Assembly: GCA_900473175.1 (NCBI GenBank)
Contig: UCKM01000025.1
Span: 1-64,000 of the forward strand
Length of the DNA stretch: 64,000 nt
From: Hyphomicrobiales bacterium
Lineage (GTDB): Bacteria > Pseudomonadota > Alphaproteobacteria > Rhizobiales > Rhizobiaceae
Reading direction: 5' to 3'
Shown here one piece after another: positions 43,421 to 50,041 of the stretch (the stretch's first letter is position 1; the number at the start of each line of letters is the position of its first letter). The translations under genes and the position numbers were made by a program. Under the pieces are notes generated by a model that did not search any database, was not told the origin of the DNA, and saw nothing but the letters and a program-made list of their open reading frames with translations.

Positions 43421-44662
43421 TCAGAGCGGGTAGGCGATGTGGACGGTGGTGCCGATGTGCGGGAACGAACTCATATCGAGTTTGCCTCCCATCGACTTGA
43501 TCAGCTCAACTGAGTTGGTCAGGCCGAGTCCGACATGGACCCCGGCCTTGGTCGAGAAAAACGGTTCGCGCGCCCTGGCCAGCAAATGGGGAGTCATGCC
43601 TGTGCCATTGTCCTCAACGCTCAGGACCAACCGCTCTCCGAGCACAAACCTTCGTTGCAGGCGCCCCCTGATAGTGATTTGCGGGTTTGGGCGCATGGAA
43701 ACGGCATTGATGGCATTGCGGACGAGTTCGTCGATCAGCATGTGAAACTGCGCGGAGGGTACTGGAATCGCCAGGGCGTCGTCATTGGCCTCCACTCTCA
43801 GTTCCTGTTTTGCGGCGCTGACAATACCTGCGATGATCTGACCAAGGGGCAGTTTCCGGGCGTCCGTGCGGGCATGCCCGATGCGCATCAGGCCTTCATT
43901 GATCGAATCGAGCTCCAGGACGGTGCTGAGCGCGGCATGCGCCATTTCCGTGGAGGGCGGGGCATTCCCGTCCACATAGGTCAGGAAAAGCCGCAACGCA
44001 GCGATGCGTGTTCGGGTCATGTGGGCGAACAGGAGGGAGAATGATTTTATATGCTGGTCTTTTCGGCTTTTGTTCCTGGCATGCTGATAGATCGCGATAG
44101 CGCTGAGGATGAGGACTGAAAGCGCTGCGAAAAATATCAGCCGGTTGCGCGCCGCTTCCGTAGCAATCCGGGTTGTGGCACTTATTGCCTGGCTGTGGTC
44201 GACAGTGGCGCCGATCAACCCCCCAAGGTAATAGTCGATAAGCGAGACCGACTTGAGCAATTCGTCGTAACGGCCTCCTTCGAGGGTCAAGGGCAAGATG
44301 ACCTTGTCAATCAATTCAATCGATCGCTCCAGGCCATGTGTGTCTTCGGGAGGCACATACTCTTTGGCATAGTCCAATTGTGACAAGGCTTTGAGATTAA
44401 ACCGCAGCATGCGGAAGTCCTGCAGCAATCGCGGATTGATTTCGCCGGTCCTGGCTGCAAGAGTGAGGTAACCGAGAATGCGGGCAACCTTGTCCCGCGA
44501 CTGCGAAGCGCGCCATTGAACTTCCGAACACTGGCTGAAGATGGTTTCGGTTTGCTGTCGGTAGGATTCGGTGCGCAACAGGGCCCAGACAGTAAAACAT
44601 ATGGACACAATCAAACCGGCATAGAGCATCACCGGAATGAGACGTCGGATGGTGGTCTTCAT
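43421..44662 (-). CDS. Membrane sensor histidine kinase
   Basis: This 413-residue kinase has a transmembrane helix at about residues 8-28, a ~145-residue helical periplasmic domain, a second helix at about 175-195, then a dimerisation/phosphoacceptor helix pair with the probable His in LLFAHMTRTRIAAL. The ATPase domain has N-box DELVRNAINAV, G1 DNGTGM, F-box PFFSTK and G2 GLGLT. There is no HAMP or PAS domain. The ATG at 44662 overlaps the molybdopterin-fold gene stop as ATGA, suggesting the two products act together. The response regulator at the top of the cluster is the obvious partner. Confidence 0.9.
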   Translation of the reverse strand: MKTTIRRLIPVMLYAGLIVSICFTVWALLRTESYRQQTETIFSQCSEVQWRASQSRDKVARILGYLTLAARTGEINPRLLQDFRMLRFNLKALSQLDYAKEYVPPEDTHGLERSIELIDKVILPLTLEGGRYDELLKSVSLIDYYLGGLIGATVDHSQAISATTRIATEAARNRLIFFAALSVLILSAIAIYQHARNKSRKDQHIKSFSLLFAHMTRTRIAALRLFLTYVDGNAPPSTEMAHAALSTVLELDSINEGLMRIGHARTDARKLPLGQIIAGIVSAAKQELRVEANDDALAIPVPSAQFHMLIDELVRNAINAVSMRPNPQITIRGRLQRRFVLGERLVLSVEDNGTGMTPHLLARAREPFFSTKAGVHVGLGLTNSVELIKSMGGKLDMSSFPHIGTTVHIAYPL

Positions 44663-45213
44663 GGGACAGGACATATCGCGACGACAAACCAGACCCAGAT
44701 GGCGTTACGACCGGGTACATAGGACTGCGGCAGTTCGTTTAACGGCCAAATGAGGTAAAATGGGCCGCCGTCTTCCAACGACAGGGGGCGGTATGTTTGG
44801 TCAGGCATACAAAGCCCGCTCGCCCTGTCATCGTCATTGCATTGCTTTTCCAAAGCTAGAATGGGTGCGAAACGATCAATCTCGTCGGTGCTGATCTTGC
44901 TGACGAAGTCATTTGAGGCCCTAACCTCAATTCCGTTTGGAGTGGTTAGGGCGTTCCTGGCAAGGATGTCCTTGAGAAGCGGGCCGCGAAAGGTCATGGC
45001 CGTGCCGGCGCTCCAAGGCGTCGCCGTCGTTCGCTCCCGTAGCTGAAACTCCTTGCGAAGGCGTTCGGCTGTGTACCTATTCACGGTCGCGCGTGCCGCG
45101 TGGGCAACGCTCAGCACGTTCTCGCCCGGAGACTGGGCGCCAGCGATGCGCAAGCCTGCCAACAGAAATACCAGGAGAATGGTGGCCGATTTGGTCAGTC
45201 TAGGCAAAAGCAC
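44659..45213 (-). CDS. Periplasmic molybdopterin-oxidoreductase-fold protein, likely sensor partner
   Basis: This ~184-residue exported protein has a signal peptide ending in RIAGAQS and a sulfite-oxidase/YedY-like molybdopterin-binding fold. Visible landmarks are TPWSAGTAMTFRGPLLKDIL, GIEVRASNDFVSKIS, APILALE and DGGPFYLIWPLNEL. The active-site Cys expected in true oxidoreductases of the fold is not evident, although two Cys occur in an insert (QCNDDDRASGLC). The GTG at 45213 has GAGGAG 7 bases upstream and was chosen over the ATG at 45231. It overlaps both neighbours (14 bases with fkbM, ATGA with the kinase). I infer a ligand-sensing subunit of the kinase rather than an enzyme. Confidence 0.78.
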   Translation of the reverse strand: MLLPRLTKSATILLVFLLAGLRIAGAQSPGENVLSVAHAARATVNRYTAERLRKEFQLRERTTATPWSAGTAMTFRGPLLKDILARNALTTPNGIEVRASNDFVSKISTDEIDRFAPILALEKQCNDDDRASGLCMPDQTYRPLSLEDGGPFYLIWPLNELPQSYVPGRNAIWVWFVVAICPVP

Positions 45214-45919
45214 GCGTGGTCTCCTCGACATATTCGCGCAAGGCCAAGTCACGGGTAAACAACACACAGGCACCGCACGATCCACGGGGATCATAGGCAA
45301 AACCGTTTGCGGCCATGGCGGACATGATCTGTTTGACACCGGCAAGGCCGTAGAGATGGTCGTGCAACTCCAGAAAAACGCGCTCCACACCAGGCAATCT
45401 GGCATTGCACAACAGTTCGTTCTCGCCGCCTTCGATATCCATCACAAGCAGGGTGATGCCTCCAGCCGCAATGATTTCATCGACATCGATTGATTGAAGG
45501 CTGATGGCCTCCTCATAGGGGCCTTGATCTTCGAAGGTTGAAGACATCCAGAAATCTCTGCGCTTGAAGAACTGAAAGCTCCTCGGTACGCCGGCGGTCA
45601 GGAGGCCGTGACTGATCGTCACGTTCGTCCTGCCATTCGCATTTACCACAGCCTGTGCCAGCCGCACGATTTCCGGATTGGCATCGAAGGCCAGGACGCG
45701 CACATCGTCCGTCGCCGCCAAGACCGACGCTATGATTCCGATGCCCGTTCCAAGCTCGAGAATGCGATCGCCAGAGCGGACGGCTTTCCCTACCCAATAG
45801 GCTTCCTTGGCCTCGTAGGTTCCGTTGCAAAGCGCGGACCAGATTTTTTCGGATACCTGGTTCTGGAGGATGGGTACTAATATCTCATTGGAATCAAATG
45901 TAATTTTCATAATATCCAT
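45200..45919 (-). CDS. FkbM-family methyltransferase
   Basis: This 239-residue SAM-dependent methyltransferase has the Rossmann motif ILELGTGIGIIASVLA, the second acidic strand LAFDANPEIV and the FkbM signature VMDIEGGENELL followed by LELHDHLYG. FkbM proteins O-methylate polyketides or sugars, and their targets in signalling clusters are unknown. The protein ends with a Cys pair (GSCGACVLF). The start lacks a ribosome site and lies 4 bases after the stop of a possible 14-codon upstream frame. It sits between the response regulator and the molybdopterin-fold gene, all on one strand. Confidence 0.85.
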   Translation of the reverse strand: MDIMKITFDSNEILVPILQNQVSEKIWSALCNGTYEAKEAYWVGKAVRSGDRILELGTGIGIIASVLAATDDVRVLAFDANPEIVRLAQAVVNANGRTNVTISHGLLTAGVPRSFQFFKRRDFWMSSTFEDQGPYEEAISLQSIDVDEIIAAGGITLLVMDIEGGENELLCNARLPGVERVFLELHDHLYGLAGVKQIMSAMAANGFAYDPRGSCGACVLFTRDLALREYVEETTRAFA

Positions 45920-46028
45920 GCATCAAAAAATGTTCGCACGGTTGGCCATGGCCTTGAGTTTGGTCATGCCGACACGGAAAAATGTCTATCTAAAAATTCA
46001 AACTATTACGGTAGATCAGTAAGCCATA

Positions 46029-46673
46029 TCACAATGGGTTCGACAACTGGCCAATTTTGAGAAGTTTTGCTTTGGCACGTTTGTAGTAGCGCTCGGCCGA
46101 CGCGGCATCGATATTCAGGTGTTCACCGAGTTGGTCGTAGATTTCCTTTCGGCTCACCCCGTCTGGCCTCTGCCGCATCCAGGCAAGGACCTCCTGCTCG
46201 CGCGGCGAGAGGGCGGAGTGGTACACTTCCGGTTTTGCACTGGCATCATGTTCGAGGCCGACGCTGTGTCCTTCCTCGGCAATTTCCTGAAGAATATTGG
46301 TCATGGCCCCCGGCTTCAAATTGTTCTTGGCGACATAACCCGCGACACCGAGGGCGCGGCAAGCATTCCACTCATTCTCGCTATCGGAGCCCGTCACAAC
46401 GATGTGGATCGCTTCGGGGGTCCGCTCCACGATCGATTTCACGACGGCCAACCTGTCGTCCTCTGCCCTTGGGTCGTAGCCTGGAAGTCCGGGATCGATG
46501 AGTACAAGGGCAAATGTGATCGATTCGGCAAGGTCGAGCGCTGTTGTCATCGTTGCCGCAGCGTGGACGATCGACGCGGGCAGGGCTGTCTGCACTTCAT
46601 GCACCAGCGCAAGCCGCATAAGGTGCTGATCCTCAACGACCAATATGTCAGACCCGGAATTGGATCGCGCCAT
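46029..46673 (-). CDS. Response regulator, REC + LuxR-type HTH
   Basis: This 214-residue protein has a receiver domain with the acidic pair in ILVVEDQH, the phosphorylatable Asp in LVLIDPGLPG, the conserved Thr in VVTGSDSE and Lys in GYVAKNN. A C-terminal helix-turn-helix begins with the LuxR hallmark LSPREQEVLAWM, though the later part (AASAERYYKRAKAKL) is divergent. It is presumably phosphorylated by the kinase at the end of the same cluster. The ATG at 46673 overlaps the stop of a six-codon upstream frame. A palindrome at 46745 lies in its promoter region. Confidence 0.87.
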   Translation of the reverse strand: MARSNSGSDILVVEDQHLMRLALVHEVQTALPASIVHAAATMTTALDLAESITFALVLIDPGLPGYDPRAEDDRLAVVKSIVERTPEAIHIVVTGSDSENEWNACRALGVAGYVAKNNLKPGAMTNILQEIAEEGHSVGLEHDASAKPEVYHSALSPREQEVLAWMRQRPDGVSRKEIYDQLGEHLNIDAASAERYYKRAKAKLLKIGQLSNPL

Positions 46674-46847: not shown

Positions 46848-47129
46848 ATGAATGATAATCACCCAGCCACCGATCCAGATACCATCCTGACCATGTTGGC
46901 CATCAAAGCGCACAGCCAGGTCCTGCATGAGATCGCGCGCCTTACCGGCGAACGGACCGCGTATGAGGCCGCTGGTATCGAATGTCGTCTTATCGACAGA
47001 CGTTTACGGGAGTCGAAAGAAATTGAACGGTGTTCGCGCATCGAACTGATCCGTTGCCCTGCAAGATCCATCCAAGAAGTTGCCGCCAAGGCTGTGCATC
47101 TGCGCCGTGCCTTATCCCTGACCAACTGA
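46848..47129 (+). CDS. Small hypothetical protein
   Basis: This 93-residue protein has predicted alpha-helical content and an acidic N-terminus (MNDNHPATDPDT), followed by basic, Arg/Glu-rich helices. It has no signal peptide or membrane segment. There is no clear ribosome site, which lowers confidence, but codon choice looks ordinary and the antisense frame is less protein-like. It diverges from the response-regulator gene and may share its palindrome. I do not recognise a family. Confidence 0.45.
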   Translation: MNDNHPATDPDTILTMLAIKAHSQVLHEIARLTGERTAYEAAGIECRLIDRRLRESKEIERCSRIELIRCPARSIQEVAAKAVHLRRALSLTN

Positions 47130-49391: not shown

Positions 49392-49579
49392 TCCTGCCAA
49401 GGCAGGCCTGCTTTTCACGTAATCGCGCGGACTGATTCGATAAGTGATCGCGTTGCAGTGATCCTTTGCTGCGCTATATTCGTTATTCATCCACGGTTCA
49501 TGGCATTAGACTTATGTCTAATGCTTAGACACGCAACCGCGTTGAAAGCCTTCAAATACGGTCTTTCACTGGAGGAATG

Positions 49580-50041
49580 ATGCGAAAATTGATTGCAGCC
49601 CTATGTGCCGCCATGATGTCAGTCGGAGCGGCCGGTTCGCTGGGAATGGCAAGCGCCGCCCCAATTACCATCGAGAGGCCGGTCGACATTGCGCGGGCCG
49701 CCGTTCCCAATACGGATGTGCAAACCGTGCATGACCGATGGGACCGTCGGGATCGCTGGGACCGAAGATGGGACCGTCGCGATTACCGTTGGGAACGCCG
49801 CCACCATCGCTGGGATCGCCGTTGGGATCGCCGTTGGGACCGCGGATGGCACCGCGGCTGGGATCGCCCATACTACCGCCGGTGGGATCGCCCCTATTAT
49901 CGCAGCTGGGATCGCCCCTATTATCGCAGCTGGGATCGGCCTTACTATCGCAGCTGGGATCGGCCTTACTATCGCGGCTGGGATCGCCCCTATTATCAGC
50001 GCCGGCATTACTACCGCACCGGCATCTATTTGTCGCTTTAG
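49580..50041 (+). CDS. Secreted Trp/Asp/Arg/Tyr repeat protein
   Basis: This 153-residue protein starts with a signal peptide (MRKLIAALCAAMMSVGAAGSL...ASAA) and continues, from about residue 53, as a low-complexity region of W-D-R units. The last part is six consecutive 8-residue units of the type SWDRPYYR, encoded by 24-base tandem repeats. The composition is extremely Arg- and Trp-rich and would be strongly basic. Such tails could bind polyanions such as LPS, nucleic acid or acidic polysaccharide. The ATG at 49580 has GGAGG 4 bases upstream; one more ATG precedes it. A terminator follows. Confidence 0.8.
   Translation: MRKLIAALCAAMMSVGAAGSLGMASAAPITIERPVDIARAAVPNTDVQTVHDRWDRRDRWDRRWDRRDYRWERRHHRWDRRWDRRWDRGWHRGWDRPYYRRWDRPYYRSWDRPYYRSWDRPYYRSWDRPYYRGWDRPYYQRRHYYRTGIYLSL
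49856..49999 (+). repeat. Six 24-bp tandem repeats within coding sequence
   Basis: These are six consecutive 24-base units encoding [GRS]WDRPYY[RQ]. The units differ mostly by synonymous changes or by the first codon (GGC, CGG, AGC), indicating recent in-frame duplication. Copy number may vary between strains. Confidence 0.9.

Follow-up and report, generated by a model that had tools for sequence, protein, structure and literature searches.

Why should a methyltransferase be built into a two-component signalling operon? The question is raised by four minus-strand genes in a stretch of 64,000 nucleotides (hereafter the window: positions 1 to 64,000 of contig UCKM01000025.1, assembly GCA_900473175.1) from a Hyphomicrobiales bacterium of the family Rhizobiaceae. 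Inspection of the open reading frames (ORFs) and of the sequence gave, in order of transcription, a response regulator, an S-adenosylmethionine (SAM)-dependent methyltransferase of the FkbM family, a protein resembling the pterin-binding protein PruR, and a histidine kinase. An earlier note, made from the letters of this DNA alone, had described them as four genes on one strand with a 14-base overlap and an ATGA junction, and the coordinates (43421-46673) confirm this; a gap of 109 bases separates the regulator and methyltransferase genes. Since the same order (response regulator, fkbM, pruR, histidine kinase; RR-fkbM-pruR-HK) is repeated in several genera, the arrangement is not due to chance. 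Our central observation is that the methyltransferase belongs to a clade near-exclusively linked to pruR. The explanation of the locus that we consider best overall, and reasonably probable, is a two-component system that responds to pterins and brings along an enzyme to tailor its ligand.

In Agrobacterium tumefaciens, the cyclic di-GMP (c-di-GMP) enzyme DcpA is controlled by PruR, which binds pterins in the periplasm (2026 review, PMC13259868). No Pfam or NCBIfam model matched the third protein of the window up to E 1, Oxidored_molyb being among the Pfam models, and phmmer matched it to PruR-type pterin-binding proteins (7kom, E 1.2e-9; also 7kp2). An AlphaFold model built from 30 sequences (predicted local distance difference test, pLDDT, 86) placed PruR proteins from Vibrio, Klebsiella and Agrobacterium in all of the top seven Protein Data Bank matches (template modelling (TM) score by target length 0.75-0.87), sulfite oxidases appearing first at rank 8 with a score of at most 0.30. 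The best match is thus a PruR structure and not a full-length molybdenum cofactor (Moco) domain. The window protein has the SUOX fold in common with sulfite-oxidase-type Moco enzymes but is about half their size or less, and both its size, with an N-terminal hydrophobic segment, and its fold agree with PruR. So do the pocket positions 102, 104 and 160 (A. tumefaciens numbering), occupied by Asn, Phe and Trp; Asp102 and Phe104 are natural PruR variants and Trp160 is mostly conserved (PMC13259868). Judging from these comparisons, the window protein is a divergent PruR, and the opinion of the earlier note that it is a sensory subunit rather than an enzyme is also our best reading. Molybdopterin, put forward in the same note as a possible ligand, is not favoured: PruR structures head the structural matches, the PruR pocket is likely unable to hold Moco (PMC13259868), and a small reduced pterin is more likely.

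PruR proteins linked to kinases form a subtype of their own. They have Phe for Tyr104 and mostly Asp at 102, position 160 being Trp in 22 and Phe in 12 of 34 sequences. Cys125 and Cys135 are both present in 34/34 of them (window included), and the corresponding columns are gapped in 46/46 DcpA-linked PruRs. Together with Cys181, the window protein has three cysteines, which refines an earlier remark on the absence of an evident catalytic Cys. Kinase-type pruR genes also occur alone, the retrieved stretch matching neither a kinase nor DcpA nor the methyltransferase (L054, L055, L057, which equals L067, and L058); that of L067 adjoins a peptide ABC transporter operon.

The methyltransferase itself scores 28.7 bits with PF05050 (cut-off 22.7) and 37.7 bits with TIGR01444, which is exactly the cut-off, and has the SAM motif and the class I SAM methyltransferase fold of the FkbM family. 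Residues E55, L56, G57 and G59 of its ELGTG motif, which corresponds to the SAM-binding motif of class I methyltransferases, are invariant in two alignments, A1 (25 rows) and A3 (33 rows; locus L139 was left out because of a stop codon within the coordinates given). Within the FkbM family, the clade of the window enzyme is set apart by being narrow, by two motifs of its own (WMSS and HDHLYGL), and by its company. The window genome encodes four PF05050 genes, two of them in this clade, one at each of its two pruR loci; the second locus (L032) consists of pruR, a gene for a GGDEF-EAL protein, and fkbM.

The linkage to pruR holds in three samples. A search of 59 genomes (that of the window and its relatives) with the window FkbM protein returned 17 genes at E 1e-30, 16 of them beside pruR; the seventeenth adjoins pieces of dcpA. 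An even sample of 297 genomes of the family contained 30 full-length genes at 51-100% identity, 11 genes at 33% or less, and one fragment at 64%, and this wide gap, the one fragment apart, marks the methyltransferase clade. Each of the 30 full-length clade genes lies no more than about 5 kb from a pruR (24 loci newly fetched, six seen earlier; in L185, one of the 24, pruR aligns only in part), compared with none of 15 control FkbM genes of 24-33% identity. The 28 genomes with a full-length gene all belong to the 125 of 297 that bear PruR (Fisher p 4e-12, relatedness ignored). The third sample was a scan of named genomes with the patterns DR[VI]LELG[TSA]G and HDHLYGLxG, of which the best 80 of 254 relatives were kept: 79 have pruR within 3.4 kb, 76 on the same strand, and the partner is DcpA in 46 of the 79 and a kinase in 33. 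In the exception (L110), pruR lies on another contig of the same genome. Locus L116, truncated at the end of its contig, is counted as kinase-type on its tblastn matches and residues. By record titles, these best 80 of 254 are mostly Rhizobiaceae, Phyllobacteriaceae, Brucellaceae and Rhodobacterales, plus Inquilinus; the samples overlap, as for 16 of the 24 newly fetched family loci the 80 include an identical enzyme. Among 20 plasmid records, 17 of which belong to the clade and three to Shinella, 12 clade records were opened, all with pruR (aligning in two pieces in L094), and clade record H37 has the same length as L093, which is without pruR. An even sample of 385 genomes of the class (E 1e-20) returned the clade from the window genome only, plus four weaker FkbM genes that joined the 11 family ones as controls, and missed the Rhodobacterales and Inquilinus members found in the named-genome scan. 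Overall, we reject the possibility that the methyltransferase, which the earlier note had found unexpected, is an accident of the locus: in three samples, clade genes stand beside pruR, and the enzyme is a recurrent PruR partner alongside either the kinase or the c-di-GMP enzyme DcpA. The synteny check by which that note proposed to refute its reading was run: the methyltransferase and the PruR-like protein do recur beside the kinase, but not in every relative.

Motif counts point the same way. Among the 24 family loci, found by protein search, WMSS is present in 24 and HDHLYGL in 22, versus 0 of 15 controls. For all 104 clade loci the numbers are 104 and 101 (motifs sought anywhere in six frames), a count that is partly circular because peptide patterns had selected loci, so that the 24 family loci are the fair set. 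Spacing is likewise regular, gene starts being approximate: in 30/32 kinase-type loci the start of pruR lies within fkbM, 13-34 bases ahead of its end, and in 23/32 pruR overlaps the kinase gene by four bases; in DcpA-type loci (n = 44) fkbM follows dcpA at about -1 to 191 bases (the value for L146, which lies on the opposite strand, is invalid). Compared with the window proteins, the enzymes of the 46 DcpA-type loci show 52-62% identity (median 57), and PruR in the same loci shows 22-30%, aligning in just 26 of the 46. As for an exchange of partners between kinase and DcpA, the methyltransferase tree needs three changes, identical sequences being counted once; we do not claim such switching, since an approximately unbiased (AU) test, on a tree without five long or odd rows and six outgroup rows, does not reject a single kinase clade (p 0.286).

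Two pruR loci of alphaproteobacterial appearance come from records titled Mycobacterium sp. KBS0706 (L112) and Bacillus subtilis SK6B4 (L126); these names look wrong, or the assemblies contaminated.

What the enzyme might act on is suggested by its neighbours in Rhodobacterales. Genes of FolE2, the GTP cyclohydrolase of the first step of pterin synthesis, are present in five of nine clusters (L097, L147, L166, L182 and L183), upstream of pruR in four of them and downstream of fkbM in L147. A short-chain dehydrogenase/reductase (SDR) resembling pteridine reductases is present in four of the nine (L147, L153, L166 and L183), and scores 377 bits with an SDR family without a named substrate. Among the other loci screened for it, 20 of them pruR loci free of the methyltransferase, we saw no FolE2; these 20 are not a matched control for FolE2 because they were drawn from the family of the window, and they had been chosen for genomes lacking the methyltransferase gene, so that its absence from them is by construction. 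In one of these Rhodobacterales clusters (Falsirhodobacter deserti, L166:2011-3763), pruR aligns only to residue 121, and what by eye is a transposase-like ORF separates it from dcpA.

The second line leads to Agrobacterium. Genome G725 appears to be A. fabrum C58, since its PruR is identical over residues 22-168 to 7kos, a structure titled Atu3496 of A. fabrum; its locus (L224) reads pruR, dcpA, 161 bases, fkbM. Among 39 genomes assigned to Agrobacterium, 33 have the clade gene at an identity of at least 75%, adjacency to pruR having been looked at in some. The best relative of the Rhodobacterales SDR in G725 is encoded at 1.12 Mb of contig 1, a position that fits PruA (Atu1130). A modified pterin, 2'-O-methylmonapterin, has been put forward for A. 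tumefaciens, where it is absent without PruA (PMC13259868). We name here a candidate gene for the methylation that would yield it, 161 bases behind dcpA in the apparent C58 genome (L224:4613-5308). The parts of the review consulted name no enzyme for this pterin, and the word "methyltransferase" does not occur in its text (PMC13259868). In the open-licence literature searched, we found no paper combining pterin, methyltransferase and FkbM, none naming Atu3494 (Atu3495 is named in three), none on 2'-O-methylmonapterin beyond the review, and no pterin methyltransferase of the FkbM kind, the sole match concerning methanogens. The PruR-DcpA system of Agrobacterium (Atu3496; 7KOS/7KOU) shares with the window locus the sensor fold, and the same methyltransferase clade stands directly downstream of it in L224 as well as in locus L032 of the window genome; it differs in its GGDEF-EAL output and in the order pruR-dcpA-fkbM, where the window has a kinase and a regulator in the order RR-fkbM-pruR-HK.

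The signalling half of the window locus appears intact. In a Pfam search of the window proteins, the regulator matched Response_reg (34.2 bits) and the kinase HATPase_c (61.7 bits); the C-terminus of the regulator resembles GerE below the cut-off (E 0.033), and no HisKA match was obtained for the kinase. Numbered from the TTG start, phospho-acceptor Asp61 of the regulator is kept in 32/33 and Lys117 in 33/33 aligned sequences. His214 of the kinase is invariant in a 33-row alignment, and its place before HATPase_c suggests that it is the phospho-acceptor, so both residues expected of a two-component pair are conserved. The kinase has a periplasmic domain of about 145 residues (by eye), with W50 and Q54 conserved, an acidic residue at W+7 (D57; Glu in 94% of the alignment), and Lys at W+8. 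We considered this domain as a clear homologue of that of DcpA, which was weakly supported (hhalign probability 35%, P 4e-4, 65 columns). The best NCBIfam kinase models among the best 25 of 51 were VirA-like, AtoS and PrsK, TorS being weaker, all far under their cut-offs. In L042 and L060, the kinase of a PruR-kinase pair is split into two frames, like a decaying gene.

The earlier note knew of no described system with this composition, which does not hold for the sensor half: PruR with a sensor kinase of the DcpA-TorS-BaeS (DTB) type has been described as PruR-DTB, in two-gene operons for which no methyltransferase is mentioned (PMC13259868). As in PruR-DTB, pruR in the window lies directly upstream of a membrane histidine kinase gene and is coupled to it, the ATGA overlap bearing out what the note had said of this coupling. 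In the window kinase, however, the WX7E motif is not exactly kept and the periplasmic domain is shorter (about 145 versus about 190 residues), and the locus adds a separate upstream response regulator, the two-Cys insert in PruR, and the built-in methyltransferase. Because of the missing exact WX7E and the weak DcpA-domain similarity, we do not file the window system as a DTB member, though it is built like one. The combination of PruR and kinase is thus not new; the new find is the link of a methyltransferase clade to pterin signalling.

Putting these observations together, we propose the following scenario. The cytoplasmic FkbM enzyme, for which we coin the name PruM, would O-methylate the side chain of a pterin of the monapterin or neopterin type, the most likely product being 2'-O-methylmonapterin. 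The pterin would reach the periplasm and bind the PruR-like protein, and the complex may then alter the activity of the membrane kinase via its periplasmic domain, the kinase in turn phosphorylating or dephosphorylating the response regulator. At the sister loci the same enzyme would serve PruR-DcpA, with c-di-GMP as the output. FkbM enzymes usually O-methylate hydroxyl groups, and such groups are present on the side chain of monapterin. Moreover, the kinase and DcpA circuits share the proposed pterin input and not the output, and the enzyme is better conserved than PruR, which argues for the ligand as the substrate; the idea of the earlier note that the methyltransferase could modify the ligand is accepted as possible. 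That bacteria use pterins as signals has been recognised only recently. We predict that one enzyme works for PruR signalling of either branch, kinase or c-di-GMP, and if this is true, a pterin signal could owe its identity to methylation rather than to redox state alone.

A different substrate would make the enzyme part of the response: under pterin control, it might O-methylate an exopolysaccharide or another surface glycan and sit in the operon through co-regulation. Adhesive polysaccharides of A. tumefaciens are indeed under PruR-DcpA control (PMC13259868). In Shinella, an FkbM relative (34%) that falls outside the clade belongs to a capsule-type locus (one of three records opened), and a gene for the succinoglycan biosynthesis protein ExoI is found a few genes away in two of nine annotated clusters, others having a thermonuclease family gene at this place. 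We nevertheless regard a glycan substrate as unlikely, since the nine annotated clusters opened show no annotated glycosyltransferase, conservation across two outputs is higher for the enzyme than for the sensor, and pterin genes join the methyltransferase cluster in Rhodobacterales. The substrate may also be a pterin with the opposite effect, methylation switching the signal off or masking it, so that the product is a non-ligand or an antagonist rather than the preferred ligand. This would explain why many genomes have PruR circuits without the methyltransferase gene, and PruR binds unmethylated tetrahydromonapterin in vitro (PMC13259868); according to the review, it is unclear what PruR binds in vivo. 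As a pruA mutant of A. tumefaciens, which is without the methylated pterin, loses signalling (a correlation only; PMC13259868), we hold such masking to be quite improbable.

It might be objected, too, that the locus is not concerned with pterin signalling, the kinase-linked PruR subtype having drifted to another ligand, such as molybdopterin or a non-pterin. The subtype is only 22-30% identical to canonical PruR, has no Pfam match, and carries the two-Cys insert, Phe for Tyr104, mostly Asp102, and Trp or Phe at 160. Yet two of these substitutions are the natural PruR variants mentioned above, the window protein itself has Asn102 and Trp160, the best structural matches are all PruR, and the methyltransferase clade is common to the window locus and to canonical PruR-DcpA; a change of ligand therefore seems to us an unlikely event.

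Several observations weigh against a ligand-tailoring enzyme in a pterin circuit. Relatedness among genomes inflates our significance values, and three clade genes stand away from pruR: L110, the broken L093 and the fragment L208. The fold of the methyltransferase tells nothing of the substrate, so its structure was uninformative as a guide. The kinase departs from the exact WX7E motif of DcpA and DTB domains and matches the DcpA-domain profile weakly. FolE2 and the SDR stand beside the cluster in Rhodobacterales only; the SDR reaches 174 bits with the pteridine reductase model, under its cut-off of 288; and genome G034 has the full cassette without a clear PruA-like reductase (best 33%). Finally, a full-length clade gene is missing from 97 of the 125 family-sample genomes that bear PruR, and among the 24 kinase-type PruR loci of the genus sample, 16 have no adjoining methyltransferase gene (the 16 comprise eight with the gene at another pruR locus of the genome, one with a broken copy, and seven with no clade gene). 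It follows that the gene is not required for the core circuit and that methylation can do no more than refine the signal.

Losses and replacements of the enzyme deserve a comment of their own. In L093 and L208, a broken or fragmentary methyltransferase lies beside a DcpA-like match with no pruR left, from which the methyltransferase-pruR module may decay as a unit. Three cassettes without the methyltransferase have, between the regulator gene and pruR and on the opposite strand, a PF19798 sulfotransferase gene (L035:5918-6646, L036:6219-6920 and L037:4283-5035), which could encode another tailoring enzyme.

It is tempting to go one step further and to suppose that RR-FkbM-PruR-HK is a pair of signal maker and receptor, comparable to LuxI/LuxR with their acyl-homoserine lactones: a private O-methylated pterin, made by the methyltransferase from a common one, would be read only via the matching PruR, cassettes of other genera near virB-type or repA genes would time conjugation or plasmid maintenance, and the Agrobacterium enzyme would be a 2'-O-methylmonapterin synthase. 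We consider this extended scenario rather doubtful. It touches on the neighbourhood of the cassettes: in other genera, 22/33 kinase-type cassettes have virB-type genes, or genes that usually accompany these, within the fetched flanks (VirB3 or VirB4 being matched in 19) and 10/33 are near repA, compared with 1/46 and 0/46 of DcpA-type loci (Fisher p ~2e-10, uncorrected for relatedness). Five annotated plasmid examples from Mesorhizobium, Aquibium and Chelativorans (L066, L068, L069, L099 and L100) have virB-type genes on one side, and two of them, from Aquibium and Chelativorans, have repABC on the other. A role of the cassette in conjugation or replication control would be a guess from position. 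No matches to the virB and repA queries were found in the window, so the plasmid association does not bear on the window copy.

Features of the four-gene cluster in the window, with the evidence for each.
Feature	Coordinates	Strand	Basis
Response regulator: receiver plus weakly GerE-like C-terminal domain	46029..46673	-	ORF, Pfam
Alternative in-frame TTG start of response regulator, one codon upstream	46676	-	sequence
FkbM-family SAM methyltransferase of the PruR-linked clade; proposed pterin side-chain O-methyltransferase	45200..45919	-	HMMs (hidden Markov models), linkage
PruR-like periplasmic protein, 184 amino acids, GTG start; proposed pterin-binding sensor subunit	44659..45213	-	phmmer, AlphaFold, pocket positions
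Membrane histidine kinase: periplasmic domain (helical by eye) plus HATPase_c	43421..44662	-	ORF, Pfam
fkbM/pruR 14-base overlap	45200..45213	-	sequence
pruR/kinase ATGA overlap	44659..44662	-	sequence
SAM-binding motif ELGTG (E55-G59) of methyltransferase	45743..45757	-	alignments
Two-cysteine insert (Cys125, Cys135) of PruR-like protein, typical of the kinase-linked subtype	44809..44841	-	alignment
Codon of proposed phospho-acceptor His214 of kinase	44021..44023	-	alignment; place before HATPase_c

Two further ORFs on the plus strand of the window may be mentioned. A small one of 93 amino acids (46848-47129) is divergent from the response regulator gene, and a similar-looking ORF occurs near the degraded locus L043; it is possibly a target of the regulator, or else a chance ORF. 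The other (49577-50041, 154 amino acids) has a signal-like start followed by repeated RWDRR / RSWDRPYY units.

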